Source of the DNA: Streptomyces sp. ALI-76-A
GTDB lineage: Bacteria > Actinomycetota > Actinomycetes > Streptomycetales > Streptomycetaceae
NCBI RefSeq assembly: GCF_030287445.1
Contig: NZ_JASVWB010000002.1
Span: forward strand, 5,642,001 to 5,706,000
DNA length: 64,000 bases
Direction: 5' to 3'
Program-made: the position numbers and the translations under genes
In this document: piece by piece, positions 15,461 to 55,049 of the stretch
Position numbering within the stretch: the stretch's first letter is position 1
Layout of the letters: every line of letters begins with the position of its first letter
Notes under the pieces: generated by a model
What the model was told of the DNA's origin: nothing
The model's database searches: none
Seen by the model: only the letters and a program-made list of their open reading frames with translations

Positions 15461-16168
15461 ATGAACTCCCGTCAGCGCCGCGGCGTGATACTCCTGCTTC
15501 TGTCGGTCCTGTGCGCGCTCGGCGCGTTCGCCGGCGTGCTGTCCGTCATCAACGACGTGCAGTCCAAGGTCGGCCCGGAGGTCACCGCGTATCGGCTGAA
15601 GACCAGCGTGCCGCCCTACACGAGCCTCAGCGCGGACCAGTTCGAGACAACCGAGATGCCCGAGCGCTGGCTGCCGGACACCGCGGTCACCGACCTCGCC
15701 GACATCCGCGGCAAGATCGCCGTCACCACGCTGAAGGCGGGCTCCCTGCTCCAGAGCGACATGATCGTCGACCGGCCCGCCCTTCAGCCCGGGCAGCAGG
15801 AGGTCGCCATCATGATCGACGCGGCGACCGGGGTGGCGGGGAAGATCACGGCGGGCGCGAGGGTCAACGTGTACGCCACCTTCGAGGGGCAGCGGGAGGG
15901 CGACCCCGCCCAGTCCAAGCTGATCGTGACGCACGCCCGGGTCATCGACGTCGGCGAGCTGACCGCGCTGCGGCCGGACGAGGACGACCGCACCCGGCAG
16001 GAAACCGAGGCCGTCCCGATCACCTTCGCGCTCACCACCGTCGACGCCCAGCGCATCACGTACGCGGAGTCGTTCGCCGAGGAGGTGCGGCTCGCGCTCG
16101 TGGCGCCCGGCGCCGACTCCACCGTCCCGGAGCGGGACCGCACCTACGAACTCGCCAAGGACAAGTGA
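15461..16168 (+). CDS. cpaB: Flp pilus assembly protein CpaB/RcpC
   Basis: A 235-residue protein with one N-terminal membrane segment (about residues 7-28, GVILLLLSVLCALGAFAGV) and an extracytoplasmic SAF domain beginning near 45 (VPPYTSLSADQFE), followed by the RcpC-type region (GAGARVNVY-like text GKITAGARVNVYATFEG). In Tad systems CpaB binds the wall or outer layer and guides the pilus. It opens a run of same-strand genes spaced 1-25 bases apart through tadC, which should be one operon. Confidence 0.88.
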   Translation: MNSRQRRGVILLLLSVLCALGAFAGVLSVINDVQSKVGPEVTAYRLKTSVPPYTSLSADQFETTEMPERWLPDTAVTDLADIRGKIAVTTLKAGSLLQSDMIVDRPALQPGQQEVAIMIDAATGVAGKITAGARVNVYATFEGQREGDPAQSKLIVTHARVIDVGELTALRPDEDDRTRQETEAVPITFALTTVDAQRITYAESFAEEVRLALVAPGADSTVPERDRTYELAKDK

Positions 16169-16177
16169 GAGGCCGCC

Positions 16178-17434
16178 ATGCCCACGAGGATCCTCCCGGC
16201 TGTCGGCGACGCGGACGCGGTCCGGTCCCTCACCACCCTCCTCAGCCAGCTCCCGGACGCCGAACCGGTCGCGCCGGTGGTGGACTCCACCCAGCTCATC
16301 GACACCCTGGCCCGGCTGGCCGCCGAGTCGATCGACGAACTGCCCGAGGTCGTCGTCGTCCACGAACGCATCGGTCCGGTGCCCGCCCTGGAGCTGATCC
16401 GTGAAGTCGCCCTGCGCTTCCCGTCCGTAGGGGTCATCCTCGTCACCTCCGACGTCAGCCCCGGCCTCTTCCAGGCCGCCATGGACTACGGCGCCCGCGG
16501 CCTGATCGCCCTCCCCCTCGGCTACGAGGAACTGGCCAGCCGGGTCCAGGCGGTCGCCCAGTGGTCGGCGGGCGTACGGCGTCACCTGGGCGCCGGCGGC
16601 GACGTGTTCACCGGCGTCGGCGGGACCGTCGTCACGGTGAGCGGGGCCAAGGGCGGCGTCGGCGCGACCCTCACCGCCATCCAGCTCGCCCTCGCCGCCC
16701 AGGCGTCCGGCCGCGCCACGGCCCTGGTGGACCTGGACCTGCAGACCGGGGACGTCGCCTCCTACCTGGACGTCCAGTTCCGCCGCTCGGTCGTCGACCT
16801 GGCCGCCATCACCGACATCTCGCCCCGCGTCCTCGCCGACGCCGTCTTCCGGCACGACACGGGCGTCGCCCTGCTGCTCGCCCCCGCCGAGGGCGAGCGC
16901 GGCGAGGAGGTCACCGACCGCGCCGCCCGCCAGATCGTCAGCGCCCTGCGCTCCCGCTACGAGGTCGTCGTCGTGGACTGCGGCGCCCAGCTCGGCGGCG
17001 CGGGCGCGGCGGCCGTCGAGATGGCCGACACGGCCCTGCTGGTCACCACCCCGGACGTGGTCGCGGTCCGGGGCGCCAAGCGCACGGTCCGGATGTGGGA
17101 CCGGCTACAGATCCGCAAGGCCGAGGAGACGACCGTCGTCGTCAACCGTCACACCCGCGGTACGGAGATCCAGCCGCCGCTGATCCAGAAGATCACCGGC
17201 ACGGCCGTCGCCGGCACCGCGATCCCCGCCAACTTCAAGGAACTCCAGGGCGCGGTCGACGCCGGCCGGGTCCACGAACTCGACAGCAGGGGCACCGTGA
17301 AGCAGGCCCTGTGGGGGCTCGCGGCGGAACTGGGCCTGGTCAAGGCGCCCGAGGGCGCCGCCCGGCGCGGGAGCCGCTCCCGGGGCGACCGGGGCGCGGT
17401 CGGCTTCCGACGGCGCAGAGAACTCGGGGGGTAG
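16178..17434 (+). CDS. cpaE: CpaE/TadZ-type pilus localisation ATPase
   Basis: A 418-residue protein. The N-terminal part (1-125) resembles a degenerate receiver domain (VGVILVTSDVSPGLFQAAM). The rest is a MinD/ParA-like ATPase with deviant Walker A KGGVGAT at 158-164 and a second acidic strand VVVDCGAQLGG. TadZ/CpaE proteins place the secretion machinery in the cell; the actinobacterial branch includes Ssd. The basic C-terminal tail (RRGSRSRGDR) is a possible membrane or DNA contact. Starts ATG 9 bases after cpaB. Confidence 0.9.
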   Translation: MPTRILPAVGDADAVRSLTTLLSQLPDAEPVAPVVDSTQLIDTLARLAAESIDELPEVVVVHERIGPVPALELIREVALRFPSVGVILVTSDVSPGLFQAAMDYGARGLIALPLGYEELASRVQAVAQWSAGVRRHLGAGGDVFTGVGGTVVTVSGAKGGVGATLTAIQLALAAQASGRATALVDLDLQTGDVASYLDVQFRRSVVDLAAITDISPRVLADAVFRHDTGVALLLAPAEGERGEEVTDRAARQIVSALRSRYEVVVVDCGAQLGGAGAAAVEMADTALLVTTPDVVAVRGAKRTVRMWDRLQIRKAEETTVVVNRHTRGTEIQPPLIQKITGTAVAGTAIPANFKELQGAVDAGRVHELDSRGTVKQALWGLAAELGLVKAPEGAARRGSRSRGDRGAVGFRRRRELGG

Positions 17435-17436
17435 GG

Positions 17437-17892
17437 ATGCGGGCGTCCGTCACAGGGCGGCGGGACGAGAACCCGGGCGGCCCACGGCACGGGGCCCCAG
17501 GCACCCGGCCGGGCCCGGACCGGGTCACCCGGCGCGACGAGGGCCAGGTCACCGTCGAGTTCCTCGGCATGACCCCGCTGATCATCCTCACGCTGGTGCT
17601 GATGTGGCAGTTCGTGCTGCTGGGATACACCTTCACGCTGGCGGGGAATGCTGCGGACGAGGCGGTTCGGGCGGGAACGGCGGTGCCGGAGGGGGAGCGG
17701 AATGCGGCGTGCACGCAGGCGGGCCTCGACAAGCTGCCGGGCGCGTGGACCGGCGAGGTCGACTGCGCCACGAGCGGGGGCTACGTCACGGCCACGGTCA
17801 CCCTGCGCGTCCCCGTGCTCTTCCCCGGCTCGATCGGCTTCCCCTTCGAGGTGGAGGGCCACGCCGGTGCCGTGGAGGAGGTGAAGGACTGA
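17437..17892 (+). CDS. TadE-like pseudopilin, first copy
   Basis: A 151-residue protein with a long polar N-terminus, then the TadE signature (DEGQVTVEFLGMTPLII) and one membrane helix at about 45-65. A pseudopilin of this kind is cut before the hydrophobic helix by a prepilin peptidase and joins the minor pilus fibre. Two cysteines (C107-type ACTQAG and VDCATS) may pair outside the cell. ATG 17437 lies 3 bases after the cpaE stop with a GGGGG run as ribosome site. The next gene is a close paralogue. Confidence 0.85.
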   Translation: MRASVTGRRDENPGGPRHGAPGTRPGPDRVTRRDEGQVTVEFLGMTPLIILTLVLMWQFVLLGYTFTLAGNAADEAVRAGTAVPEGERNAACTQAGLDKLPGAWTGEVDCATSGGYVTATVTLRVPVLFPGSIGFPFEVEGHAGAVEEVKD

Positions 17893-17893
17893 G

Positions 17894-18301
17894 ATGCCGT
17901 ACGACGGGAAGGGGCGCGACCGCCGCCGTGGTGGCGGCGACCGTGGTGGCGGTGGCCGGGCGGGCCGCGATCTCGGCCAGGTCGCCATCGAGTACCTCGG
18001 GTTCATCCCGATCCTGATCCTGGTCGCGATGGCGGGCGTGCAGATCGGGCTCATCGCCTACACCGCCCAGCAGGCCGGCACGGCGGCCCGGGCCGGGGCA
18101 CGCGCGGCCTCGCTGGAGGAGAGCGCCCAACAGGGGTGCCAGAACGCGGTCAGCGGCTGGCTGGCCGACGACACCACGTGCACGGAGGCGTACGGCGCCG
18201 ACGAGGTCACGGTCACCGCCACCATCGAGATCCCGCAGTTCGTTCCCGGCTGGGACTTCGGCACCGCCCGGAAGACCGCCACCATGCCGCTCGACCACTG
18301 A
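17894..18301 (+). CDS. TadE-like pseudopilin, second copy
   Basis: A 135-residue TadE/TadF-like protein: basic Gly/Arg-rich leader, then GQVAIEYLGFIPILILVAM and a single membrane helix at about 35-58. It shares the layout of the preceding gene, including a cysteine pair (GCQNAV, TTCTEA), so the two probably arose by tandem duplication and may form a heterodimer. It begins one base after the previous stop. Confidence 0.85.
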   Translation: MPYDGKGRDRRRGGGDRGGGGRAGRDLGQVAIEYLGFIPILILVAMAGVQIGLIAYTAQQAGTAARAGARAASLEESAQQGCQNAVSGWLADDTTCTEAYGADEVTVTATIEIPQFVPGWDFGTARKTATMPLDH

Positions 18302-18311
18302 GGAAGCACCC

Positions 18312-19649
18312 ATGAGCCTGCGCTCGCGCATCAACTCCCCGGAAGAGAAAGGCAGCCGGGGCGAGGACGGCCACCTGGTCTCCTCCTACCGGGCCAAGCT
18401 CCTGGAGGAGATAGACCTCGCGGAGATGAGCGCGCTGGCGGCGGCCGAGCGCAGGGCACGGCTGGAGCGGGTGCTCGGGCACATCATCAGCCGGGAGGGC
18501 CCCGTCCTGTCGACGGTGGAGCGCTCCCAGCTGATCCGCAGGGTCGTCGACGAGGCACTCGGCCTCGGCATCCTGGAGCCGCTGCTGGAGGACGCGTCGA
18601 TCACCGAGATCATGGTGAACGGCCCGGACTCGATCTTCGTCGAACGCGGGGGCCGCGTCGAGCAGTTGCCGCTCCGCTTCCCCTCCCACGACCAGCTGAT
18701 GCAGACCATCGAGCGGATCGTGTCGACGGTCAACCGGCGGGTGGACGAGTCGAACCCGATGGTGGACGCCCGGCTGCCCTCCGGCGAGCGGGTGAACGTG
18801 ATCATCCCTCCGCTGTCCCTCACCGGCGCCATCCTCACCATCCGCCGGTTCCCGCGCTCCTTCACGCTCAGCGAGCTGGCCGGCTTCGGTTCGCTCGACG
18901 AGCACATGCTGTATCTGCTCGCCGGGCTGGTGCAGGCCCGGTTCAACATCATCGTCTCGGGCGCGACGGGCACCGGCAAGACGACGTTGCTGAACGCCCT
19001 GTCCGGGCTCATCCCCGACACCGACCGCATCATCACCATCGAGGACTCGGCCGAACTCCAGCTCCAGCAGCGGCACGTGGTCCGGCTGGAGTCGCGTCCG
19101 GCGAACGTGGAGGGCAAGGGCCGTATCACCATCCGCGATCTGGTCCGCAACTCGCTGCGGATGCGCCCCGACCGGATCGTGGTCGGTGAGGTGCGCGGCG
19201 GGGAGTCGCTCGACATGCTCCAGGCGATGTCGACCGGCCACGACGGCTCGCTGGCCACCGTGCACGCCAACAGCGCCGAGGACGCGCTGATGCGGCTGAA
19301 GACCCTGGCGTCGATGTCCGAGGTGGAGATCCCCTTCGAGGCGCTGCACGACCAGATCAACAGCGCCGTCGACGTCATCATCCAGCTGACCCGGTTCGCC
19401 GACGGCGTCCGCCGCGTCACCGAGATCGCGGTGCTGGACAGCCGCGGCAGCGAGCCGTACCGACTGGTCACCGTCGCCCGCTTCGACGCCCGGCCGATGG
19501 CGGCCGACGGCCGGATCTACGGCGCCTACCAACATCTCCCGCTCCCGCGCCGCACCGCCGACCGCCTCTACATGGCGAGCCAGCCCACCCCGCAGGCCTT
19601 CGGCGTGGCCCAGTCCGCAGAACAGCTAGCCATCCGAGAAGCCAGGTAG
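18312..19649 (+). CDS. cpaF: Tad pilus secretion ATPase CpaF/TadA
   Basis: A 445-residue GspE-family ATPase that powers pilin assembly. The N-terminal domain (60-190) carries EIMVNGPDSIFVERGG; the ATPase domain has Walker A GATGTGKTT at about 217-225, an Asp box (IEDSAELQLQ), the Walker B region DRIVVGEVRGGE, and the His box ATVHANSAEDAL. It acts as a hexamer at the inner face of the membrane with TadB and TadC. All catalytic motifs are intact. Confidence 0.95.
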   Translation: MSLRSRINSPEEKGSRGEDGHLVSSYRAKLLEEIDLAEMSALAAAERRARLERVLGHIISREGPVLSTVERSQLIRRVVDEALGLGILEPLLEDASITEIMVNGPDSIFVERGGRVEQLPLRFPSHDQLMQTIERIVSTVNRRVDESNPMVDARLPSGERVNVIIPPLSLTGAILTIRRFPRSFTLSELAGFGSLDEHMLYLLAGLVQARFNIIVSGATGTGKTTLLNALSGLIPDTDRIITIEDSAELQLQQRHVVRLESRPANVEGKGRITIRDLVRNSLRMRPDRIVVGEVRGGESLDMLQAMSTGHDGSLATVHANSAEDALMRLKTLASMSEVEIPFEALHDQINSAVDVIIQLTRFADGVRRVTEIAVLDSRGSEPYRLVTVARFDARPMAADGRIYGAYQHLPLPRRTADRLYMASQPTPQAFGVAQSAEQLAIREAR

Positions 19650-19659
19650 GACCGCCCCC

Positions 19660-20604
19660 ATGGAACTCCAGACCCTCGTCACGCTCACCACCGGCGTCGC
19701 ACTGCTGACCTGCGTCCTCGCCGTGATCGGCGTGCACACCTACGCCAAGGGCAGGGCACAGCGGGCCGCCCTCGTCGAGCGCCTGTCGGCGGCCGGCCAG
19801 ATACCGGTGACCGGCCGCCGGCGCCGCTTCCGCAATCTGGACCGTCGGCTGCGCGGGACGAAGACGGGCCGGAAACTCGAACTGCGGCTGGCGGCCACCG
19901 GCCTGGACGTCACCCCGGGCGAGTTCTTCGCCGCCATGCTGGCCGCGGTGGCCGGCCTGTGGCTGATCGGCCAGGCGACCCTGGCTCCCTTCTTCGGCCC
20001 GATCGCCGGACTGCTGGGCATCTGGGCGGCCTTGCAGTTCCTGAGCTGGCAGCGGCAGAAACGCATCGAGAAGTTCATCAACCAACTCCCCGAGATGTCC
20101 CGCATCCTGGCCAACGCCACCCAGGCGGGCCTCGCCCTGCGCACGGCGATCGGGATGGCGGCGGAGGAGCTGGAGGCACCGGCGGGCGAGGAACTCGGCA
20201 AGGTGGCCAACCAGTTGGCGATGGGCGCGACGATGGACGACGCGCTCGGCGAGATGGCGGAGCGCCTCCCGTCGCGCGAACTGGTCGTCCTGGTCACCAC
20301 GCTGGTCCTGTCGAACCGGGCGGGCGGCCAGGTGGTGAGCGCCCTGCGGAACCTGACGGAGACCCTGGAGGAACGCAAGGAGACCCGGCGTGAGGTCCGC
20401 ACCCAGCTGTCCCAGGTGAGCATGACGTCGTACGCCGTGCCGGTCCTCGGGGTCGGCTCGCTGTTCCTGATGAACGGGGTGAAGGACGGCGCGCTGGACC
20501 GTATGACCGGCTCCCCGGTGGGCCAGGCGGCGGTCCTGGTCGCGTTCTGCCTCTACGCGGTGGGCTTCCTCCTGATCCGCCGCCTGTCCCGCATCGACGT
20601 CTGA
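19660..20604 (+). CDS. tadB: Tad membrane platform protein TadB
   Basis: A 314-residue type II secretion F-family protein: an N-terminal membrane helix, further helices near 95-125, a cytoplasmic F domain (about 150-270, with MSRILANATQAGLALRTAI), and two C-terminal helices. It forms the membrane platform that the CpaF ATPase drives. It sits 10 bases after cpaF and 24 bases before tadC. Confidence 0.92.
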   Translation: MELQTLVTLTTGVALLTCVLAVIGVHTYAKGRAQRAALVERLSAAGQIPVTGRRRRFRNLDRRLRGTKTGRKLELRLAATGLDVTPGEFFAAMLAAVAGLWLIGQATLAPFFGPIAGLLGIWAALQFLSWQRQKRIEKFINQLPEMSRILANATQAGLALRTAIGMAAEELEAPAGEELGKVANQLAMGATMDDALGEMAERLPSRELVVLVTTLVLSNRAGGQVVSALRNLTETLEERKETRREVRTQLSQVSMTSYAVPVLGVGSLFLMNGVKDGALDRMTGSPVGQAAVLVAFCLYAVGFLLIRRLSRIDV

Positions 20605-20628
20605 GCGGCCGAGAGGGGATCGCGAGCG

Positions 20629-21516
20629 ATGGCACTTGTGCTGGCCCTGCTGATGGGCCTTTCCGTGTGGGGCGCCTTCACCGGCGTCCGCATGTACCGG
20701 GCGGACGCGAAACTGCCCAGCGACCTGGTGCTGGCCCTGGAGGTCGGCGCCACCCGCACCGGGGCGGTGGACTCGCTGGTCGACCGTATGGGCATGCGCT
20801 ACGCCCCCACGGTCCTGCGGCTGATGGGCCCCGGGCAGGTCGCGAAGTACCGCCGCAAGATCGACCTGGCGGGCAACCCCGGCGGCCTCACCATCGACCG
20901 CTACGCGGCCCGCCGCGCGGTCTACGGCGTCCTGGGCGGCGTCGGCTTCGTCGTCTTCCTGCTCCGGGGCGACATCCTGGTGGCCCTGTTGCTGCTGGCG
21001 TTCGGCGCGTTCTGGACGGAGGTCGGCATCTGGTCGGCGATCCGTATCCGCAAGGACGTGATCGAGCGCACGCTGCCGGACTTCCTGGACGTGCTGGCGG
21101 TGGTGGTGAGCGCGGGTCTCGGCTTCCGCCAGGCGCTGGACCGCGTCGCCTCGAAGTACGAGGGTCCCTGGGCGGACGAACTGCGCATCACCCTGCGCCA
21201 GATGGACCTCGGCATGAGCCGCCGCCAGGCCTTCGCGGAGCTGCGCCGCAGGAACGACTCCGAACAGGTGGCGATGTTCGTGACGGCGTTGCAGCAGGGG
21301 GAGGAACTCGGGGCGCCGATCGTCGACACGCTCGTGTCCCTGGCCAAGGACATGCGCCGCACAGACGCCCAGAACGCCCGCCGCAAGGCCGCCCGCGCGG
21401 TCCCCAAGGCCACGATGATGATCACGACGTTCATGGTCCCGGCCACGATGATCCTGCTCGGGGCGGGACTGCTGCTGGGCTCGGGGACGGACTTCGGATC
21501 GATCACGGGGGAGTAG
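20629..21516 (+). CDS. tadC: Tad membrane platform protein TadC
   Basis: A 295-residue F-family protein, paralogous to TadB. Hydrophobic segments lie at the N-terminus, at about 95-135 and at the C-terminus (MVPATMILLGAGLLLGSG); the central F domain reads LPDFLDVLAVVVSAGLGFRQ. Together with TadB it makes the heteromeric inner-membrane core. Last clear structural gene before the two-component pair. Confidence 0.92.
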   Translation: MALVLALLMGLSVWGAFTGVRMYRADAKLPSDLVLALEVGATRTGAVDSLVDRMGMRYAPTVLRLMGPGQVAKYRRKIDLAGNPGGLTIDRYAARRAVYGVLGGVGFVVFLLRGDILVALLLLAFGAFWTEVGIWSAIRIRKDVIERTLPDFLDVLAVVVSAGLGFRQALDRVASKYEGPWADELRITLRQMDLGMSRRQAFAELRRRNDSEQVAMFVTALQQGEELGAPIVDTLVSLAKDMRRTDAQNARRKAARAVPKATMMITTFMVPATMILLGAGLLLGSGTDFGSITGE

Positions 21517-21529
21517 GAGGGAGGGAGAC

Positions 21530-23038
21530 GTGAGGGCGAGGACGAGAACCAGGGCGACGACCAGGACGCCGGCGACGAGGAGGACGACGAGGACGCCGAC
21601 CGAGGGCGGTCAGACCCTCCGGGGGCTTCCCGCGCGGGAGGGCGGAGGCGGGACGAGGGGTGCCGGTGCCGGTAGTGGCGCGTGCGCCGGTGGTGCCGGT
21701 GGTGCCGGCCGGGAGCACCCCCGTGAACACGGACCGGAACCCGCGACCGATCCCGCGCCGGGCTCCGCCCCGACCACCTCGACCACCCCTCCCATCCCCC
21801 TCCAGGTGAACGCCCTCCAGGCGATGTGCCGCCAGGTCTTCGGCTTCCGCCTGGCCATGATCGCCGTAGCCGCCCCCGCCGCCCTGCTGAACGCCGCCCC
21901 CGGCCTGGGCGTCCGCCTGGTGGGCGCCGCCGTCGTCGTCACCTTCATGGGCTCGTACGTCCTCTTCAGGGACTGGGAGCGCTTCGGCCCCCTCCTCCTG
22001 CGCCACCCCACCCTGCTGGCCGCGGACACCCTCTTCGGCTCCCTGCTCCTGGTCTCGGCGGGCCCCGACACCACCCTCGCCTACGTCAGCGTCTGCACCC
22101 CGCTCCTCGCCGGCATCGTCTACGGCTGGCGAGGCGCCGCCGTCTTCGCCTCCCTCCAGTCGCTGATCCTGCTGCTCGTCCAGGCCACCCTGGGCGACGC
22201 CCGCGCCGGCCTCGCGGAGTCCCTGCTCCTGCCGGGCTTCTGCGTCATCACGGGAGCCGTGGGTTCCACCCTGCGCAACCTGATGCTCCGCTTCGGCACC
22301 GCGACCCAGGCCCTGACCGCCGTGCAGGCCCGGCTGGCCGCCACGGAGGCGGTGAGCGCGGAACGGGCCCGCCTGGCCCGGGAGATGCACGACTCCGTGG
22401 CCAAGACCCTGCACGGCGTGGCCCTCGCCGCGGACGGCCTGGCGCACTCCGCGGGCGCCGCGCGCATGGATCCGGCCCTGATCAAGCAGCAGGCCGGACT
22501 CGTCGCCCGCTCGGCGCGCAGGGCGGCCGCCGAGTCCCGCGACCTCCTCGCAGACCTGCGCGGCGAGTCCGACCCCGGCCGCGCCATCGGCCTCCTCACC
22601 ACCGACGTCCTCACCGAACTGGCCACTCGGGTGCACGACTTCAGCGCGCGCACCGCCCTCCCGGCGGCGTACCACCCCACCGGCGACCGGACGGGGCCCC
22701 CACCGCCGCTCCCGCCCGCCGTGGCCCGCCACCTCCTCACCATCGCCACGGAGGCCATGGAGAACGCCCACCGCCACGCCGCCGCGACCCGGGTCGACGT
22801 CCACGCCGGAGTCCACGGCGGCGTCCTGCGCGTCAGCGTCCACGACGACGGCCGCGGCCTCCCGGCGGACACGACCCTCGAACAGCTCAGCCGCTCGGGC
22901 CACTTCGGTCTGGTCGGCATGGTCGAGCGGGCGGCGTCGGTGGGCGCCCGCATCCGCATCGGCAAGGGCACGCACCTCAGGGGCACGGAGGTCCTCCTGG
23001 AACTCCCCCTGGCAGCACCGCCCCCGGAAACCCCGTGA
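21530..23038 (+). CDS. Sensor histidine kinase of the tad locus (HisKA_3 type)
   Basis: A 502-residue NarL-type kinase. The first 90 residues are low-complexity Arg/Thr/Gly sequence of doubtful translation; an in-frame GTG near 21806 (VNALQAMC) would remove it. Five or six membrane helices span about 105-245, then the dimerisation/phosphoacceptor helix REMHDSVAKTLHG with H287, and a HATPase domain at about 375-495 (ENAHRHAAATRV, DDGRGLP). The GTG at 21530 has a GGAGGGAGGGAG ribosome site. It lies between the tad structural genes and its response regulator, so it most likely controls pilus expression. The signal is unknown. Confidence 0.88.
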   Translation: MRARTRTRATTRTPATRRTTRTPTEGGQTLRGLPAREGGGGTRGAGAGSGACAGGAGGAGREHPREHGPEPATDPAPGSAPTTSTTPPIPLQVNALQAMCRQVFGFRLAMIAVAAPAALLNAAPGLGVRLVGAAVVVTFMGSYVLFRDWERFGPLLLRHPTLLAADTLFGSLLLVSAGPDTTLAYVSVCTPLLAGIVYGWRGAAVFASLQSLILLLVQATLGDARAGLAESLLLPGFCVITGAVGSTLRNLMLRFGTATQALTAVQARLAATEAVSAERARLAREMHDSVAKTLHGVALAADGLAHSAGAARMDPALIKQQAGLVARSARRAAAESRDLLADLRGESDPGRAIGLLTTDVLTELATRVHDFSARTALPAAYHPTGDRTGPPPPLPPAVARHLLTIATEAMENAHRHAAATRVDVHAGVHGGVLRVSVHDDGRGLPADTTLEQLSRSGHFGLVGMVERAASVGARIRIGKGTHLRGTEVLLELPLAAPPPETP

Positions 23039-23049
23039 CGAGGACACCG

Positions 23050-23865
23050 ATGACATCGACGACGACACACGCGAGGACTCCCTCGCCCCCCACCGCCGGC
23101 CTCCGGGTCGTCGTGGCCGACGACAACCCCGTGGTCCGCGCGGGCCTGACCGCCCTGCTCTCCGGCCGCCCGGACATCACGGTCGTGGCGGAGGCGGCGG
23201 ACGGCCACCAGGCGTGCGAGGCGACGTACGACCACCGCCCCGACGTCGTCCTCCTGGACGTCCGCATGCCCGGCATGGACGGCATCGCCGCGCTTCCGTA
23301 CCTGGTGGACATCGCCCCGGTGATGATGCTGACCTACAGCCGGGAGCCGGAGATCGTGGAGGAGGCCCTGCGCCGGGGCGCCGGCGGGTACCTGGTCCAC
23401 GGCGAGTTCACGGCCGACCAACTGGTCTCCGCCGTACGGGACATTCAGGCGGGCCGTGCCCACTTCACCCACACGGCGGCGGGAGCGCTGCTGGCGCAGC
23501 TGCGTGCGACCAGTGCGAGTGCATACGAAGTTCACCGTTCCGTTTCTTCTCGTCAGAGAGGAGAACTAGTGGCCGTGCCAGGCGATTTACCTCCATCGAG
23601 GCACCTGCCCCCACTCGATTCTCCGGAAAGTGCTTCACGAGTGCAACCGGATGTGGGACAGTCGGATCGGGCGCGATTCCGGCTGAGTACGAGGGAGGCG
23701 GAGATCATGGACCTCATCGCATCGGGCATGACCAACCAGCAGATCGCCGCCGCCTGCTTCATCAGCGAGAAGACGGTCAAGAACCACATCAACCGCATCT
23801 TCGCCAAACTCCACAGCACGAGCCGCGCCGAGGCGACAGCCAAGTGGCTCCGCGGGGCGGGGTGA
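23050..23865 (+). CDS. NarL/LuxR-type response regulator of the tad locus with TTA codon
   Basis: A 271-residue regulator. The receiver domain (17-135) has the acid pair D24/D25 and phosphoacceptor D70 (VVLLDVRMPGMDG); the usual switch lysine is replaced, the text reading GGYLVHGEF. A 50-residue linker of lower G+C precedes a LuxR helix-turn-helix (about 205-268, LSTREAEIMDLIASGMTNQQIA). Codon 180 (23587-23589) is TTA, the Leu codon read only by the bldA tRNA, so full synthesis should depend on bldA. Six codons before it sits an internal AGGAG and in-frame GTG (23569), able to give a 98-residue HTH-only form that also contains the TTA. Starts 11 bases after the kinase. Confidence 0.9.
   Translation: MTSTTTHARTPSPPTAGLRVVVADDNPVVRAGLTALLSGRPDITVVAEAADGHQACEATYDHRPDVVLLDVRMPGMDGIAALPYLVDIAPVMMLTYSREPEIVEEALRRGAGGYLVHGEFTADQLVSAVRDIQAGRAHFTHTAAGALLAQLRATSASAYEVHRSVSSRQRGELVAVPGDLPPSRHLPPLDSPESASRVQPDVGQSDRARFRLSTREAEIMDLIASGMTNQQIAAACFISEKTVKNHINRIFAKLHSTSRAEATAKWLRGAG
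23559..23571 (+). promoter_or_regulatory. Internal ribosome binding site and in-frame GTG in the response regulator
   Basis: AGGAG at 23559-23563, a 5-base spacer, then GTG at 23569-23571 in the regulator's own frame. Spacing is ideal. Translation from here would yield a 98-residue protein containing only linker and DNA-binding domain. Confidence 0.55.
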
Positions 23866-24004
23866 CCTGTGCTGACGCGAGGGGGAAGCGGCGGGGGTCG
23901 TTTTTGGGCCCGGATTTGGGCCCGAAGGCCCTCGGCATGGCGGGGTGTTCCGTCGTACGTTGAGCTGATCGCTCGCCGGTCGGCCGCCATCGGAGGGGAA
24001 CACC

Positions 24005-24199
24005 ATGAGCAACTGGATCAACACGACCATCTCGTACTTTCAGTCCCGCGCTGCCCGCAACGACAAGGGGCAGACGGCGGTGGAGTATCTGGGGATCATC
24101 GCGGTGGTGGTGGCCATTGTGCTGGCGATCACGGGGACGGACATCGGGCAGACCATCTTCGACGCGATCACGACGAAGATCGCCGAGGTCACCGGCTGA
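24005..24199 (+). CDS. Flp-family type IVb major pilin
   Basis: A 64-residue pilin: short leader, then GQTAVEYLGIIAVVVAIVLAI, the Flp signature with the Glu-Tyr pair after the processing site, and a short tail. A GGAGGGG site precedes the ATG. It should be cleaved by a prepilin peptidase and polymerised by the CpaF/TadB/TadC machine into a thin surface fibre. The promoter region (23866-24004) is the one clear break in the locus, suggesting the pilin is transcribed separately. The following gene overlaps its stop. Confidence 0.93.
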   Translation: MSNWINTTISYFQSRAARNDKGQTAVEYLGIIAVVVAIVLAITGTDIGQTIFDAITTKIAEVTG

Positions 24200-24795
24200 C
24201 GCAGCGCCGTGGGCAGGGCGACGCGGGGCAGGCCTTCCCCATCTACATCACGGTGGTGGCGGGTCTGCTCCTTCTCGCGTTCGCGTACCTCGCGGTCGGC
24301 CAGGCCGCGGCGAATCGGAACAGCGCCCAGACGGCGGCAGACGCGGCGGCACTCGCAGCTGCCCTGGACACCAGGGACCAACTCGCCGATGAGTGGGTGC
24401 AGAACGTACTCGACCCGACCAAGTGGCAGGCCATCTTCGACGGCGAGGGCGTGCCGTTCGACGGGTGCGGGCGGGCGGACCAGCTCGCGGCGCGAAACGA
24501 TGCCACCGCTGTCTGTGGCGTGGCGCCGGGTCTGCCTCCGGGCTACACGGTCGACGTCGAAACGAACGAGCCTGTCGGAGACTCCATCGTCCCCGGCACC
24601 GAGAGCGTGCATTCGAAGGCGAGTGCCACGGCCGTGATCGAGCGGCTCTGCACGTTCGAGCCACTCGCGGAGGACGCAGGCGAAGACGTGCTGCCGCAGC
24701 TCGACTGCAAGGACAAGCCGTGGAGCCTGGACCCGGACGATCTCACCGTTCTGCCGGAACCGGAGGACCTCTTCGACGTCCATCTGGCCGACTGA
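24196..24795 (+). CDS. TadG/TadE-like pilus protein with apparent CTG start
   Basis: A 199-residue protein if read from CTG 24196, which overlaps the pilin stop as CTGA. The N-terminus LTQRRGQGDAGQAFPIYITV has the form expected of the family (normally M-T-x-R-x-G-x-AFPIY), followed by a membrane helix and the usual AANRNSAQTAADAAALAAA segment. No ATG, GTG or TTG lies in frame between the pilin's middle and this point, so either CTG is used by translational coupling or the start has been damaged. The periplasmic-side domain has four cysteines (DGCGRA, AVCGV, RLCTF, LDCKD) that could form two disulfides. Confidence 0.78.
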   Translation: MTQRRGQGDAGQAFPIYITVVAGLLLLAFAYLAVGQAAANRNSAQTAADAAALAAALDTRDQLADEWVQNVLDPTKWQAIFDGEGVPFDGCGRADQLAARNDATAVCGVAPGLPPGYTVDVETNEPVGDSIVPGTESVHSKASATAVIERLCTFEPLAEDAGEDVLPQLDCKDKPWSLDPDDLTVLPEPEDLFDVHLAD

Positions 24796-24829
24796 CGAGC
24801 GAATGACGAGTGATGAAGGAAGCAGAGTG

Positions 24830-25411
24830 ATGAGCATTCGGTTCACGGCGAAGGCCAGCAGGGCGGTGGTCGCGTTGACACTCGCGACCGGAGTGGCTCT
24901 CGGCGTGGCCGGCTGCGGTGGTGGAGGCGACGACGACAAGAAGCCGGAGAGTTCGGCGTCCTCCTCCAAGGAAAGTGGGTCTCGACCGAGCACGCAGGAG
25001 GGTGAGTCGGAAGCGCCCCTCGCGGAGTTGAGGGGACCTGACGGACTCGTACTCGAGATCACCTCCGCCGAGCGGGATTCCGGCGGTTTCGTCACCGTGA
25101 ACGGAATTCTGAAGAACGACGGCGACAAGGGCGTGGCGATCCCTGCCTCGCTGAGTGGCAACGAGACCGAGATCATCAGGAACGGTCGGTCCCTCGGCGG
25201 CGCGACGCTCGTGGATTCGAAGGGGAAGAAGCGGTACTACGTGCTGCGCGACACGGATGGCCGTCCGCTGACGACCACGGGCTTCTCCACAGTGAAGGCT
25301 GGCGAGACCGTGGCCGTCTTCATGCAGTTCCCCGCGCCCCCCACCGACACGACCGACGTCACCTTCCAGCTCCCCGCCTTTGCCACCGCCTCCATCCAGA
25401 TCTCCGGGTGA
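24830..25411 (+). CDS. Lipoprotein of the tad locus
   Basis: A 193-residue lipoprotein. The signal peptide ends in the lipobox VAGC at about residues 24-27, followed by a Gly/Asp/Lys-rich and Ser-rich spacer and a beta-rich domain (LVLEITSAERDSGGFVTVNG) resembling DUF4352-type immunoglobulin-like domains. The ATG has a GAAGGA site at 24815. It sits between the pilus genes and an OmpA-like protein, with 8 bases to the latter, so it probably anchors or accompanies that protein at the cell surface. Exact role unknown. Confidence 0.82.
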   Translation: MSIRFTAKASRAVVALTLATGVALGVAGCGGGGDDDKKPESSASSSKESGSRPSTQEGESEAPLAELRGPDGLVLEITSAERDSGGFVTVNGILKNDGDKGVAIPASLSGNETEIIRNGRSLGGATLVDSKGKKRYYVLRDTDGRPLTTTGFSTVKAGETVAVFMQFPAPPTDTTDVTFQLPAFATASIQISG

Positions 25412-25419
25412 GGCCACCC

Positions 25420-26037
25420 ATGACCCACGTGCGCCTCAGCCTGATCCTCACGGCAACCTCCTTTCTCCTGGCCGGGACCACCATCTCCGCCCAAGCCGCC
25501 GACGACCCCAGCGTCCCCCCCGGCACCGAACCCACCGCCTCCGCCCCCGTCAACGTCGACGCCAACGACCCCGACCTGAAGATCCCCGAGGGGGCCACCC
25601 TCGCCGAGCCCAAGGTTCTGGACATCAAGCAGGTCGTCGAGGACCAGACCGGTGACGAGCGGCGCGAGGACACGAACGCGGACGTGAAGTTCGCCTTGCA
25701 GGCCGAGGTGTTGTTCGGCAAGGACAGCGCGAAGCTGAGCGCGGAGGCGCGGGCCCGTATCTCCTCGATCGCGGAGGAGATCAAGACGCAGAACGCGACG
25801 AAGATCCGGGTCTTCGGGTTCACGGACAACCTCGGTTCGTCCGCCCACGGCGACGTCCTGTCGAAGCGGCGCGCCAACGCCGTACAGGCGGTCCTGGGCC
25901 AGGAACTCAACGACGCGAACGTCACGTTCGAGGTCCGCGGCTACGGCGAGCAGTACCCGATCTCCTCCAACGCCACGGAGTCCGGCCGCAAGAAGAACCG
26001 AAGGGTCGAGGTCTCCTTCCCGCGCACGGAGAACTGA
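25420..26037 (+). CDS. OmpA-family peptidoglycan-associated protein
   Basis: A 205-residue secreted protein: signal peptide ending near AQAADD, an acidic linker, and an OmpA C-terminal domain at about 80-200 with TKIRVFGFTDNLGSS and LSKRRANAVQAVL, the Asp and Arg that bind diaminopimelate in peptidoglycan. In a Gram-positive there is no outer membrane, so it most likely pins the Tad machinery or fibre to the cell wall. An alternative GTG at 25408 overlaps the lipoprotein stop; ATG 25420 is preferred because it gives a normal signal peptide. Confidence 0.9.
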   Translation: MTHVRLSLILTATSFLLAGTTISAQAADDPSVPPGTEPTASAPVNVDANDPDLKIPEGATLAEPKVLDIKQVVEDQTGDERREDTNADVKFALQAEVLFGKDSAKLSAEARARISSIAEEIKTQNATKIRVFGFTDNLGSSAHGDVLSKRRANAVQAVLGQELNDANVTFEVRGYGEQYPISSNATESGRKKNRRVEVSFPRTEN

Positions 26038-48567: not shown

Positions 48568-50712
48568 TCAGCTCCGGTTCAGCTCGAACCAGACGACCTT
48601 CCCGGTGCTCAGCCGGGTCGCGCCCCACCGCCGGGCCAGCTTGTTGACCAGGTACAGCCCGCGTCCGCCCTCGTCGGTGGCGCGCGCCTGCCGCAGCCGG
48701 GGCAGCTGCGGCACGTCGTCCCCGACCTCGCAGCGCAGCACGTCGGTGCGCAACAGCCGTAGCGTGATCGGCCGGGTCGCGTACCGCACGGCGTTCGTCA
48801 CGACCTCGCTGACCAGCAGCTCCACCGAGTCGCTGAGCTCCTCCATGTCCCAGCGGGCGAGCGCGCGGCGGGCCAGCCGGCGGGCCCGGCCGGGGGCCAT
48901 CTCCTCCGGCTCCAGGAACCAGTACGCCACGTCGCTCGGCGCGATCCCGTCGAAACGGGCGGCGAGCAGCGCGATGTCGTCGTCCCGGTCGCCCGGACCG
49001 AGCATGTCCAGCACCTCGTCGCACAGGGCTTCGAGCGGCGGCGGATGGTCGGGGCCGGTCAGCTGCGCGGTCGCGGCGAGCTTCTCCCGCAGCTGCTCTA
49101 TGCCGGTCCACACGTCCCGCAGGCGCGACTCGACCAGGCCGTCGGTGTACAGGAGCAGGGTCGCCCCGGCGGGCGCGTCCAGCTCCACGGCCTCGAAGTC
49201 GACGCCCCCGACACCGATCGGCGCGCCCGGCGGCACCCGGAGCACCTCGGCCCGGCCGCCCAGGTGCAGCAGGACCGGCGGGGGATGGCCGGCGTTGGCG
49301 ATGGTGATCCGGTGCGAGACCGGGTCGTAGACGGCGTACAGGCAGGTCGCCATGCGGTCGGTGCCCAGGCGCTGCGCCTGCTCGTCGAGGTGGTGCAGGA
49401 CCTCCTGCGGGGGCAGGTCGAGACCGGCGAGGGTCTGGGCCGTCGTCCGCAGCTGGCCCATGATGGCCGCGCTGGTCATGGAGTGGCCCATGACGTCACC
49501 GACCACCAGGGCGACCCGGCTGCCGGGCAGCGGGATCGCGTCGTACCAGTCGCCGCCGACCCGCGCGGTCTCGGCCGCGGGCAGATAGCGGGACGCCAGC
49601 CGCACACCCGTGGGACGCGGCAGCGTCTCCGGCAGCATGGTGCGCTGCAACTCGTCGGCGATGTACGCCTCGCGGCCGTACAGCACCGCCTTGTCGATGC
49701 CGAGCGCGCTGTGGGTGGCGAGCTGCGCCGCCACCAGCAGGTCGTCCGGCTCGAAGGCGATCCGGTCCGGGCGGCGCAGGAACAGCGCGGCACCGATCAC
49801 CCGGCGCCTGCCGCGCAGCGGCGCGAGGATCGCGCGCTGCCCGCCCGGTACGACGAACTCGCCGCCATCGCCGAGGAGTTCGGGCAGCGCGGCACGCGCG
49901 GCCGGGGTGTCCGTGAAGACCGGACGCACCCCACGCAGCACCTCGGCGAGCGCGCTGCCGGGCTGCACCTCGCACAACTCGGTGCCGATGGTGTCCAGCT
50001 CGGACGGATCCGGCACCGGCACCGGCAGGATCCCGTCCTCCAGGTCCCGCTCCTGCGGGATCCGGTCGGTGCGGCGCAGCCGCAGCACCAGCGGGCCGAC
50101 CGGCCGCTCGTCGCCCACCGGCAGCGGGTCCCGCAGATAGACGAGGATCGCGTCCGAGAACGTCGGCACGGTCGCCCGGCACAGCCCCATCACGATCTCG
50201 TCGAGGTCGATGCCGCGGGCGATCCGCCGGGTCGCGGCGCCCACGAACCGCAGCCGGTCCCCGTCCCGCCGCATCGGCGTGGGCCGGCCCGGCGGCACAG
50301 TCTGCCCGGTCCGGCGCTCCGGACCGTCCGACCCGGTGCCGGACCGGTCCTGACCGGTGCCCGGCTGGAGGGGGATGCCCTCCGGGACGGGCCGCGGGCG
50401 GTGTTCCCCCACGCTCGCATCCGCTCGCGCGGGAGGTACCCCCATGGGATCGGCGGTGACGGGCTGGGAGTGCTCGGGGCCGGTGCCGGCCGGGTCGTTG
50501 TCCATGCCGCTCGATGTCGTCGTACCGGATCCGGCGGGCTGAGGCTCACCGGCGCGGGCCTGTACGGGTAAGGCGCCGACACCGGGCGTGCGCGCCGGCG
50601 CGTCCGAGCCGTGGGGAACGGACGGCGCCGGGGTACGCAGGAGCGCCCCGCGGTCGTCCGCGGGGTCGACGCCCGCCTGGGGGCGTTCGAAGGAGGTCGG
50701 CTGCTCCGTCAC
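48568..50712 (-). CDS. SpoIIE-type PP2C phosphatase with GAF and HATPase domains
   Basis: A 714-residue regulator. After 130 residues of disordered Pro/Gly/Thr sequence there is a GAF-like sensor (about 155-345), a PP2C/SpoIIE phosphatase domain (about 360-580, with AETARVGGDWYDAIPL and VALVVGDVMGH supplying metal-binding Asp residues, and DDDIALLAARF), and an RsbW-like HATPase (about 600-714, LLVSEVVTNAVRYATRP, DEGGRGLYLVNKLA). Such proteins switch anti-sigma-factor antagonists by dephosphorylation and can themselves bind sigma factors. Streptomyces have dozens; the partner of this one is unknown. Confidence 0.92.
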   Translation of the reverse strand: MTEQPTSFERPQAGVDPADDRGALLRTPAPSVPHGSDAPARTPGVGALPVQARAGEPQPAGSGTTTSSGMDNDPAGTGPEHSQPVTADPMGVPPARADASVGEHRPRPVPEGIPLQPGTGQDRSGTGSDGPERRTGQTVPPGRPTPMRRDGDRLRFVGAATRRIARGIDLDEIVMGLCRATVPTFSDAILVYLRDPLPVGDERPVGPLVLRLRRTDRIPQERDLEDGILPVPVPDPSELDTIGTELCEVQPGSALAEVLRGVRPVFTDTPAARAALPELLGDGGEFVVPGGQRAILAPLRGRRRVIGAALFLRRPDRIAFEPDDLLVAAQLATHSALGIDKAVLYGREAYIADELQRTMLPETLPRPTGVRLASRYLPAAETARVGGDWYDAIPLPGSRVALVVGDVMGHSMTSAAIMGQLRTTAQTLAGLDLPPQEVLHHLDEQAQRLGTDRMATCLYAVYDPVSHRITIANAGHPPPVLLHLGGRAEVLRVPPGAPIGVGGVDFEAVELDAPAGATLLLYTDGLVESRLRDVWTGIEQLREKLAATAQLTGPDHPPPLEALCDEVLDMLGPGDRDDDIALLAARFDGIAPSDVAYWFLEPEEMAPGRARRLARRALARWDMEELSDSVELLVSEVVTNAVRYATRPITLRLLRTDVLRCEVGDDVPQLPRLRQARATDEGGRGLYLVNKLARRWGATRLSTGKVVWFELNRS

Positions 50713-51795: not shown

Positions 51796-53181
51796 TCACG
51801 GACGCGTCATCCGCAGGACATCCAGCGCCTCGTCGAGCTGCTCCTCGGTGAGGTCGCCGCGTTCCACGTACCCGCTCTCGACGACGACCTGACGGATCGT
51901 CTTCCGCTCGGCCAGCGCCTTCTTGGCGACCTTGGCGGCCTCCTCGTACCCGATGTACTTGTTGAGCGGGGTCACGACGGACGGCGACGACTCGGCGTAC
52001 TCACGGGCCCGTTCGCGGTGGGCGACGATTCCGTCCACGGTCCGGTCGGCGAGCAGCCGCGAGACGTTGGCGAGCAGCCGGATCGACTCCAGCACGTTCT
52101 TCGCGATGACCGGCAGCATCACGTTGAGCTCGAAGTTGCCGGCGGCGCCCGCGGTCGCCACGGTGGCGTCGTTGCCGACGACCTGCGCGGCGACCATGAG
52201 GACGGCCTCCGGGATCACCGGGTTGACCTTGCCCGGCATGATCGACGAGCCCGGCTGGAGGTCGGGCAGCGAGATCTCGGCGAGGCCGGTCCGCGGGCCG
52301 GAGGACATCCACCGCAGATCGTTGGCGATCTTGGTGAGCGAGACGGCGATGGTCCGCAGCTGTCCGCTGGTCTCGACGATCCCGTCCCGCGCGCCCTGCG
52401 CCTCGAAGTGGTCGCGCGCCTCGGTGAGCGGCAGCCCGGTGGTCCGGGCGACCTCCTCGATCACGGCGGCGGAGAAGCCGGGGGGCGTGTTGATGCCGGT
52501 GCCGACGGCGGTGCCCCCGAGGGGCAGTTCGGCCAGCCGGGGCAGGGAGGCGTTCAGCCGCTCGATGCCGTACCGGATCTGCGCCGCGTACCCGCCGAAC
52601 TCCTGGCCGAGGGTCACCGGCGTGGCGTCCATGAGGTGGGTGCGCCCCGACTTCACGACGTCCGCGAACTCCTCGGCCTTGCGGGACAGGGAGGCGGCGA
52701 GGTGGTCGAGGGCGGGGACGAGGTCCCGGGTGACGGCGGCGGTCGCCGCGATGTGGATCGACGAGGGGAAGACGTCGTTGGACGACTGCGAGGCGTTGAC
52801 GTGGTCGTTGGGATGTACGGCCCGGCCCAGCCGCTCGGTGGCGAGGGTGGCGATGACCTCGTTGGTGTTCATGTTGGACGAGGTCCCGGACCCCGTCTGG
52901 AACACGTCGACCGGGAAGTGCGCGTCCCACCGCCCCTCGGCGACCTCCCCGGCCGCCTCCTGGACGGCGTCGGCGATGTCCTTGTCCAGCACGCCCAGGC
53001 TCGCGTTCACCTTCGCCGCGGCGGCCTTGATCCGGGCCAGCGCCTCGATGTGGGCGCGTTCCAGATGCTGCCCGGAGATCGGGAAGTTCTCCACGGCCCG
53101 TTGCGTCTGGGCCCGCCACTTCGCGTCGGCGGGGACGCGGACCTCACCCATGGAGTCGTGTTCGATGCGGTAGTCGCTCAT
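51796..53181 (-). CDS. fumC: Fumarate hydratase, class II
   Basis: A 461-residue fumarase of the iron-independent aspartase/fumarase superfamily; interconverts fumarate and malate in the TCA cycle. Conserved blocks in order: [51 protein letters not shown] and the signature loop [12 protein letters not shown] with its catalytic Ser. ATG 53181 ([12 protein letters not shown]) matches the family start; the long upstream frame crosses an inverted repeat and is rejected. A class I enzyme is encoded just upstream on the same strand. Confidence 0.95.
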
Positions 53182-53196
53182 ACCGCGTACAGCGCC

Positions 53197-53304
53197 CCCG
53201 CGGCCCCTGCCCATTCCCGTCACCGTCCCAGTCCGTCCGGCGTCTGAGGACAGGGCGTTCGGGGGCGGAGCCCCCGAGTGACGGGAACGGGCAGGGGCCG
53301 CGGG
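53197..53304. repeat. 27-bp inverted repeat with nested hairpin between the two fumarase genes
   Basis: Left arm 53197-53223 and right arm 53278-53304 are complementary at 26 of 27 positions. The 54-base loop contains the nested hairpin TCGGGGGC-GGA-GCCCCCGA (53259-53277-side), a motif repeated widely in Streptomyces intergenic DNA. The right arm runs into the duplicated fumarase 3' end. Confidence 0.85.
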
Positions 53305-53423
53305 GTGACGACCTAACCCAGCCCAGGCCCCCGCACCGGGATCGACGTGAACGTCGGCGCCGGCGCGGGGGTGACGACCTAACCCAGTCCAGGCCCCCGT
53401 ACCGGGATCGACGTGAAGGTCGG
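53302..53423. repeat. Direct duplication of the 3' end of the class I fumarase gene
   Basis: Bases 53302-53357 repeat at 53368-53423 with 3 mismatches in 56. The right copy is the true gene end; the left copy would code the same final residues [14 protein letters not shown] and stop. All three differences are silent third-position changes. Confidence 0.92.
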
Positions 53424-55049
53424 CTGAGAGAGTTGCTGCGGGCTGAAGAAGTCGTTGCCCTTGTCGTCGACCACGACGAACGCCGGGAAGTCCTCGACCT
53501 CGATCCGCCAGACGGCCTCCATGCCGAGCTCCTCGTACTCGACGACCTCGACCTTCTTGATGCAGTCCTGGGCGAGCCGGGCCGCCGGCCCCCCGATCGA
53601 GCCGAGGTAGAAGCCGCCGTGCGACGCGCACGCGTCCGTGACCTGCTTGCTGCGGTTGCCCTTGGCCAGCATCACCTTGGAGCCGCCGGCGGCCTGGAAC
53701 TGCTCGACGTACGAGTCCATGCGCCCGGCGGTCGTCGGACCGAAGGAGCCGGACGCGTAGCCCTCGGGCGTCTTCGCCGGACCCGCGTAGTACACCGGGT
53801 GGTCCTTCAGGTACTGCGGCATCTCCTCGCCCGCGTCCAGCCGCTCCTTGATCTTGGCGTGCGCGATGTCACGGGCCACGACCAGCGGGCCGTTCAGCGA
53901 GAGCCGGGTCTTCACCGGGTGCTTGGTCAGCTCGGCGAGGATGTCGTCCATCGGCTGGTTCAGGTCGATCCTGACGACGTCACCGGCCTCGTCGAGGTGC
54001 TCGTCCGTCGTCTCCGGGAGGAACCGCGCCGGGTCGGTCTCCAGCTGCTCCAGGAAGACGCCCTCGGCGGTGATCTTCGCGACGGCCTGGCGGTCGGCGG
54101 AGCAGGACACGGCGATGGCGACCGGGCAGGACGCGCCGTGCCGGGGCAGGCGTACCACCCGCACGTCGTGGCAGAAGTACTTGCCGCCGAACTGCGCGCC
54201 GATGCCGATCCTCTGCGTCAGCTCGAAGACCTTCTCCTCCAGCTCCTTGTCCCGGAAGCCGTGGCCGAGCGGCGAGCCCTCGGCCGGGATCTCGTCCAGG
54301 TAGTGCGCGGAGGCGTACTTGGCGGTCTTCAGCGCGTACTCGGCGCTGGTACCGCCCACGACGATCGCCAGGTGGTACGGCGGGCAGGCGGCCGTACCGA
54401 GCGACCGGATCTTCTCCTCCAGGAACCTCATCATGGAGGCCTCGTTCAGGACGGCCTTCGTCTCCTGGTAGAGGAACGACTTGTTGGCGGAGCCGCCGCC
54501 CTTCGCCATGAACAGGAACTTGTAGGCGCCGCCGTCGGTCGCGTACAGCTCGATCTGCGCGGGCAGGTTGGAGCCGGTGTTCTTCTCCTCCCACATGGTG
54601 AGCGGAGCCATCTGCGAGTAGCGCAGGTTCAGGTTCTTGTACGCGTCGTGGATGCCCCGGGACAGGGCCTCCTCGTCGCCGCCCTCGGTGAGCACGTTCT
54701 GGCCGCGCTTGCCCATCACGATCGCCGTGCCGGTGTCCTGGCACATCGGCAGGACGCCGGCCGCCGCGATGTTCGCGTTCTTCAGGAGGTCGAGGGCGAC
54801 GAACTTGTCGTTGCCCGACGCCTCCGGGTCGTCGATGATGCGGCGCAGCTGGGCGAGGTGGGCCGGGCGCAGATAGTGCTGGATGTCGTGGATGGCCTCC
54901 TCGGCGAGCGCGCGCAGCGCCTGCGGCTCCACCTTGAGGAAGGTCCGCCCGTCGGCCTCGAAGGTGGAGACACCCTCGGAGGTCACCAGCCGGTACGGGG
55001 TGGTGTCCTCTCCCATGGGGAGCAGATCGGTGTACGCGAACTCAGGCAT
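53379..55049 (-). CDS. Fumarate hydratase, class I (iron-sulfur)
   Basis: A 556-residue [4Fe-4S] fumarase. Cluster-ligand cysteines are visible in [18 protein letters not shown] and [11 protein letters not shown]; the C-terminal beta domain holds [15 protein letters not shown] and [12 protein letters not shown]. It makes malate from fumarate but is oxygen-sensitive, so the neighbouring class II enzyme may cover iron limitation or oxidative stress. ATG 55049 has GAGGA at a good distance; ATG 55058 is an alternative with too short a spacer. The gene's last 56 bases are duplicated just downstream. Confidence 0.95.

Follow-up and report, generated by a model that had tools for sequence, protein, structure and literature searches.

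Several described systems bear on the control of a locus such as this one. In Streptomyces, the TTA codon of adpA falls between two domains and, according to PMC4255298, has been kept in all the streptomycetes analyzed. BldM and BldM-WhiI are developmental response regulators of Streptomyces with defined 16-bp sites (PMC4125116). The transcriptional regulation of an Flp/Tad cluster has been studied in Pectobacterium (PMC3767616), and in M. tuberculosis the recX promoter is found inside recA (PMC3062782). For promoter features, PMC4681348 was the source consulted. None of the matches listed from the open literature dealt with Flp/Tad regulation in Streptomyces. The tad/flp locus described here is like the adpA/bldA switch (PMC4255298) in having a TTA between two domain-coding parts of a transcription regulator gene. 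What we propose is that the linker-coding stretch of the regulator gene contains a cis-acting element of the downstream flp gene, whose bases would be fixed by selection on the DNA and not on the peptide. Judging from sequence comparison, we give this reading about three chances in four, and the element seems to us more notable than the TTA codon.

The regulator and its TTA codon

The window, i.e., the whole stretch of DNA that was analyzed, spans 64,000 nucleotides, and the tad genes, kinase, regulator, pilin, and control sites described below lie on its forward strand. The tad genes (15461 to 21516), recognized by Pfam, family, and order, code for RcpC/CpaB (15461), a ParA-type ATPase (16178), TadE (17894), an ATPase (18312), and two T2SSF proteins (19660 and 20629); from family and order, we take the products at 16178 and 18312 to be TadZ-like and TadA, respectively, and the last two to be TadB/TadC. 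The regulator gene (23050 to 23865, with the ATG at 23050 and the stop codon at 23863 to 23865) is flanked by a sensor kinase with HisKA_3 and HATPase_c domains (21530 to 23038, start codon uncertain), both assigned by ORF and Pfam, and by a 64-aa Flp pilin (24005 to 24199). The pilin was identified by Pfam Flp_Fap and its position in the tad locus, and its match (E 6.3e-6, 26.3 bits) is under the curated cut-off of 32.2. Further downstream, an uncharacterized lipoprotein-like protein (24803 to 25411), with no Pfam match at E 0.001, separates the pilin-side genes from an OmpA-domain protein (25408 to 26037).

By its domains, the regulator is of the NarL/FixJ type, with a receiver (PF00072, residues 20 to 129) and a LuxR/GerE helix-turn-helix (HTH; PF00196, residues 212 to 263) that score 77.2 and 69.7 bits against Pfam cut-offs of 30.2 and 23.5. 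Receivers are characterized by an acidic pair, a phosphorylated Asp, a Thr, and a Lys. Here, D24 and D25 are present in 64/65 orthologues and D70 and T95 in 65/65, but the Lys position (residue 117, 23398 to 23400, assigned by eye) is His in this regulator and in 64/65 orthologues. The regulator is an atypical member of the NarL/FixJ type rather than a non-member by domain, and because His replaces the usual Lys, this response-regulator family of the tad/flp locus may be activated in an atypical way. These and the following counts derive from 88 loci (the best 80 matches listed, the gene itself, and 7 paralogues), of which the 65 sequences above 205 bits were kept and aligned. Counts over 64 sequences exclude L036, a regulator without the element on a second contig of the L023 genome. 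A set of relatives at E up to 1e-70 (12/81) was too strict for orthologue counts and was excluded.

The first-pass annotation had drawn attention to a TTA at codon 180 of the regulator and had read it as a sign of bldA control of the Flp pilus. ORF translation confirmed the codon, in frame at 23587 to 23589, and, given where the receiver and the HTH are placed, it sits in the interdomain linker. A tRNA-Leu gene with anticodon taa (UAA) was found elsewhere in the genome. The accompanying remark that no other in-frame TTA had been seen in the genes checked does not extend to the whole window: a crude gene call, in which the regulator and the pilin were missed, gave 56 genes, 2 of them with the codon. 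One of these codes for a SpoIIE/GAF protein (48568 to 50712, codon 48) and the other is a fumarase/lyase ORF (51796 to 53631, codons 84 and 106), whose two TTAs precede the first Pfam domain (residue 162) and are perhaps upstream of the true start. Within the regulator gene, an in-frame GTG (23569 to 23571) with AGAGAGGAG immediately upstream is found six codons ahead of the TTA, and a start there would make the TTA codon 7.

Across orthologues, the aligned column of codon 180 has TTA in 2/65, this genome (L001) and L009, which is 81% identical and the closest among the matches listed; 41 of the 65 have a gap at this column. Orthologues lacking TTA at this point, which the first-pass annotation had named as evidence against its proposal, are thus what we found in all but these two. 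With the bldA regulon the regulator shares an in-frame TTA in a real gene and the presence of a tRNA-Leu(UAA) gene in the genome, but not a TTA kept at one position. From residue 18 on, some TTA was detected in 17/64 orthologues, spread over 11 different columns, a higher frequency than in the neighboring genes of the same loci (kinase, 2/61; TadC, 0/56; Flp, 1/62). A second, partly overlapping sample gave TTA in 13/69 regulators and none in 56/69. We compared the observed TTAs with those expected from the position-wise base composition of the 65 sequences. There were 6 against 6.1 in linker residues 155 to 189, 6 against 1.7 in residues 131 to 154 (four in column 147 and two in column 151), 4 against 13.8 in the element block (residues 190 to 208), 2 against 6.4 in the receiver, and 0 against 3.8 in the HTH. 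Therefore, TTA occurs about as often as expected in residues 155 to 189, is enriched just before them, and is scarcer than expected in the element block, the receiver, and the HTH.

A bldA switch, in which the TTA would hold back synthesis of the full-length regulator until the developmental tRNA appears and give a late Flp pilus, would agree with the codon and its tRNA both being in the genome, with the share of orthologues that have some TTA compared to the kinases, and with the classic bldA target adpA, in which TTA is likewise between two domains (PMC4255298). Set against the same-column count, the scatter over 11 columns, the agreement with composition in residues 155 to 189, and the many regulators of the second sample that have no TTA, such a switch appears unlikely. 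What stands of the original proposal is that bldA control of the pilus, by a link from bldA through the regulator to flp, is possible in this strain; as a conserved feature it does not hold. The full-length regulator of this strain and of L009 still requires UUA decoding, and from the TTAs at other places in other orthologues we infer that bldA dependence may recur among these regulators, yet without being conserved. Much of this recurrence seems to accompany an unusual linker of non-coding-like composition.

A conserved element in the linker-coding stretch

Over the 65 orthologues, the GC content of the linker (residues 155 to 208, 23512 to 23673) at the first, second, and third codon positions is 0.685, 0.631, and 0.599, with a GC3 of 0.936 in the flanking receiver and 0.916 in the HTH. 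At the end of the linker, the alignment has constant third bases while the residues vary. The third base of q201 is T in 63/65, with D, S, N, H, P, and others as residues; that of q195 is T in 63/65, and that of q203 is A in 64/64. This region contains an element of 31 bases, conserved at the nucleotide level, with consensus YTTCGCNNNNGCAAYNNNNTRTGGSACAGTC (23633 to 23663, downstream of the TTA), delimited by nucleotide alignment and genome scans and scored as a 38-nt block (23626 to 23663). It is present in one copy in this genome, and its 29-base form has a single match in the 9.7 Mb with as many as 3 mismatches allowed. Residue 202 is coded by GTG in 50 and ATG in 14 of the 65 sequences (64/65), as if the element marked an internal translation start producing a GerE-like protein with the HTH only. 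We find this scarcely credible: a Shine-Dalgarno sequence was not seen ahead of the RTG, the RTG is retained in regulator-less loci though the HTH does not follow, and the adjoining bases are equally fixed.

On a promoter reading, the element includes a -35-like hexamer (23634 to 23639), TTCACG here and most commonly TTCGCA in relatives, 17 nt before a -10-like hexamer. Block comparison also revealed a GCAAC box in this spacer (23643 to 23647), a candidate operator half-site whose first four bases are nearly invariant, and TGGGACAGT (23654 to 23662), the putative extended -10-like part (TG-N-GACAGT). Throughout the 90 blocks compared (72 regulator-bearing and 18 regulator-less), block bases T29, G30, A33, and T37 are invariant and the -10 hexamer begins with G or C, never T; positions 9 to 14 (TTCGCA) and 32 to 37 (SACAGT) are separated by 17 nt, and the invariant TG precedes SACAGT. 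A weaker conserved nucleotide block is found in the regulator orthologues at 23515 to 23526, most commonly as GCGACTGCATAC and GCGACTGCACAC and here as GCGAGTGCATAC; this GCGACTGCAYAC-like block lies at a variable distance ahead of the element. Pairing of this first block with the element end was rejected by eye, the CAT variants being unmatched in the first block. An overlapping gene in the +1 frame (FRKCNRMWDS-like in many orthologues) was also discarded; its open frame starts at different places and varies in length.

The 22-base form of the element has exactly one exact match in 28/61 genomes of the genus, and the reversed-pattern control gave 0. Of these matches, 23 are in the regulator and 5 near or upstream of flp. 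The latter belong to 3-kb loci without kinase or regulator, and the best regulator match anywhere in those five genomes is 39 to 48% identical, i.e., at paralogue level. At up to 2 mismatches, the element was recovered in 115/132 genomes of the same genus and 0/15 from other genera of the order (reversed control, 2). Within other genera of the family, it is beside flp in at least 7/51 genomes, six times in the regulator (genera g33, g34, and g37) and once without it (g38). The scan at up to 3 mismatches behind this figure matched 29/61 genomes, and 8 other-genus places were examined (7 beside flp and 1 without tad genes); the remaining 3-mismatch places, several of which share one same sequence, are outside that count. 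A 2-mismatch match without tad genes in G293 looks like chance, and viral contigs gave no matches to the strict pattern.

Stretches upstream of flp were taken from 99 genomes with an flp match, of 121 searched, and flp could be placed by BLAST in 94 of the 99 loci; G002 is represented by its flp copy next to the regulator, not by its best-scoring match. With a scoring matrix built from 62 regulator sequences, the element scored above every reversed or shuffled control in 88/94 placed loci, 70/72 of those bearing the regulator (in the coding linker) and 18/22 of those without it (upstream of flp); the genomes are related, so these and the box counts given below are not independent events. Because the matrix came from regulator sequences, it is the loci without the regulator that provide an independent result, the one that matters most. 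The 72 loci include L163, with an HTH remnant only, L153, at a contig end, and the partial matches L150 and L219. The two exceptions among them are L153, cut by the contig, and L163, with a shortened element. In L163 (G022), the HTH remnant comes after the shortened element at ca. 1561 to 1800, and the kinase and the receiver were not found in the flp locus. Among the 22 regulator-less loci, the element is absent in L193 and L169 and reduced to the TGTGGGACA core in L205 and L221. The 5 loci in which flp was not placed have the element in 4 cases and lack it in L220. The distance from element to flp ranges from 136 to 635 nt, and wherever the element scores in a placed locus, its strand is that of flp. 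One locus (L161/L117, genome G031) has flp and the element with a different gene before flp, and tadC was not found upstream; it may be rearranged.

Decayed HTH remnants were detected directly behind the element in 4 of the 18 regulator-less loci, three of them with gaps, and therefore the regulators were lost in those four loci and the element was retained. Of the 18 loci, 10 have no ATG or GTG that would open the regulator frame into the element, and in L170, L171, and L173 the ORF through the element is at most 8 residues long in every frame; in L170 and L171 the element is ca. 20 nt after the end of tadC. Counting against a cis-element, the other 8 loci do have an ATG or GTG from which the regulator frame runs open into the element, and 5 of them (L185, L211, L203, L168, and L186) also show a Shine-Dalgarno-like match; in L185 and L211 this frame forms a small ORF located after tadC and before flp. 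We also considered a small ORF following the element where the regulator is missing, and dropped it because these loci have no product in common. Conservation, low copy number, strand, independence from coding, and the link to flp come directly from these comparisons. Because the element is retained upstream of flp also without the regulator, it is best read as an flp cis-element embedded in the regulator gene. Selection on the element, rather than on the peptide, would fix its bases, and the element together with a relaxed surrounding linker would leave a stretch that is AT-rich for a streptomycete, in which TTA codons would arise.

Possible roles of the element and the proximal flp promoter

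From the features of the block we infer transcription from it or protein binding to it, i.e., a promoter or an operator. The most likely mechanism, to which we give slightly under even odds, is an intragenic promoter with a -35-like TTCGCA, a 17-nt spacer with the GCAAC box, and an extended -10-like TGN-SACAGT. Housekeeping promoters of the HrdB type have a -35 like TTGACN, a spacer of 16 to 18 nt, and TANNNT as the -10. In the element, TTNNC is nearly invariant, the A and T of the -10 are invariant, and the spacing is 17 nt. A housekeeping promoter would not be expected to have G or C instead of T as the first base of its -10, the fixed GCAAC in the spacer also speaks against a promoter, and a simple sigma-70 scan of the window copy of the element gave no promoters. 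Alternatively, the element might be an asymmetric operator through which some DNA-binding protein would control flp from afar, a close alternative to which we give only slightly lower odds than to the promoter. Its half-sites would be two imperfect dyads, TNGC-N4-GCNA and TGTGGCACA; these dyad-like halves, the nearly invariant GCAA in the spacer, the restriction to G or C at the first -10 position, and the variable distance to flp would all suit an operator. However, the 17-nt spacing with the invariant TG..A...T suits an extended -10 promoter, and the constant strand in placed scoring loci and the single site in this genome also argue against an operator. The element could also act in RNA, as a processing, protein-binding, or small-RNA site of the tad-flp transcript that sets the pilin mRNA level. 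Its sense orientation in placed loci and unconstrained distance would fit, but no folding signal appeared (11/65 sequences folded, z from -1.2 to +1.4), there was no Rfam match in 23000 to 24300, and L161 keeps the element though tadC was not found upstream of flp, all of which makes this role very unlikely.

A different type of site is present closer to the pilin gene. Box and genome scans identified the tandem TTGGGCCC-N4-TTGGGCCC (23904 to 23923), a candidate operator of the regulator, whose tandem copy is unique in this genome at up to 1 mismatch (reversed control, 2). By position and phase, TACGTT (23956 to 23961) is the -10-like hexamer of a proximal flp promoter; its first base is 40 nt downstream from that of the second box, and the flp ATG follows 49 nt further on. 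TTGGGYCC boxes within 330 nt upstream of flp are present in 69/72 regulator-bearing loci (missing in L134, L195, and L163) and in 1/22 regulator-less ones (L193). Among the 44 loci that could be measured, the spacing from the start of the nearest box to a TANNNT -10 is exactly 40 nt in 39, the rest being at 28, 32, and 52 (three times), and paired boxes are 12 apart in 13 of 14 cases among the matches listed (40/44 loci). Presence with the regulator, absence without it, and a fixed distance to the -10, which is the behavior expected of an operator, are what TTGGGYCC displays, its phasing again being read from the aligned sequences. These boxes at the proximal flp promoter (TANNNT) are probably the regulator's own operator. 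The step from regulator to flp in a bldA cascade appears to gain support from candidate boxes that precede the flp -10 at a largely constant phase and are tied to regulator presence.

If the element is a promoter, transcription would be predicted to start near 23669, beyond the TTA, and to cover flp and the 3' portion of the regulator gene without requiring the regulator. The pilin gene would gain a route needing neither the regulator nor the UUA codon, and only the regulator-dependent branch would need UUA decoding in this strain. An intragenic flp promoter downstream of an optional TTA would thus provide two routes to the pilin. We suggest tentatively, as a rather doubtful extension, that a flp promoter inside the regulator gene "writes" the linker, with one route through the UUA-decoded regulator acting at TTGGGYCC and another that is regulator-free, the inner one outliving the regulator in the lineages that lose it.

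Comparison with known systems

The locus offers two precise candidate DNA sites for the control of the Streptomyces Flp pilus. It also invites caution, in that TTA codons in Streptomyces linkers may mirror local composition rather than bldA selection. While adpA has TTA in 14/14 Streptomyces genomes (PMC4255298, Table 2), the codon 180 column of the regulator has it in 2/65. The BldM and BldM-WhiI consensus sequences given in PMC4125116, TCACcCgnncGgGTGA and TGnnCCGnnCGGGTGA, resemble by eye neither the element nor TTGGGYCC, and we did not recognize such a 16-bp site in either of them. With the Pectobacterium system (PMC3767616) the likeness lies in the Flp/Tad cluster, in a phylum different from that of Streptomyces. 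The nearest parallel in arrangement is recA/recX (PMC3062782), where the promoter of the next gene is within the preceding coding sequence, as we propose for flp, with promoter activity here being predicted. Unlike in that case, the element described here outlasts its decayed host gene and dictates linker codons, and so a DNA element may shape the linker of a protein and persist after the gene that contains it.
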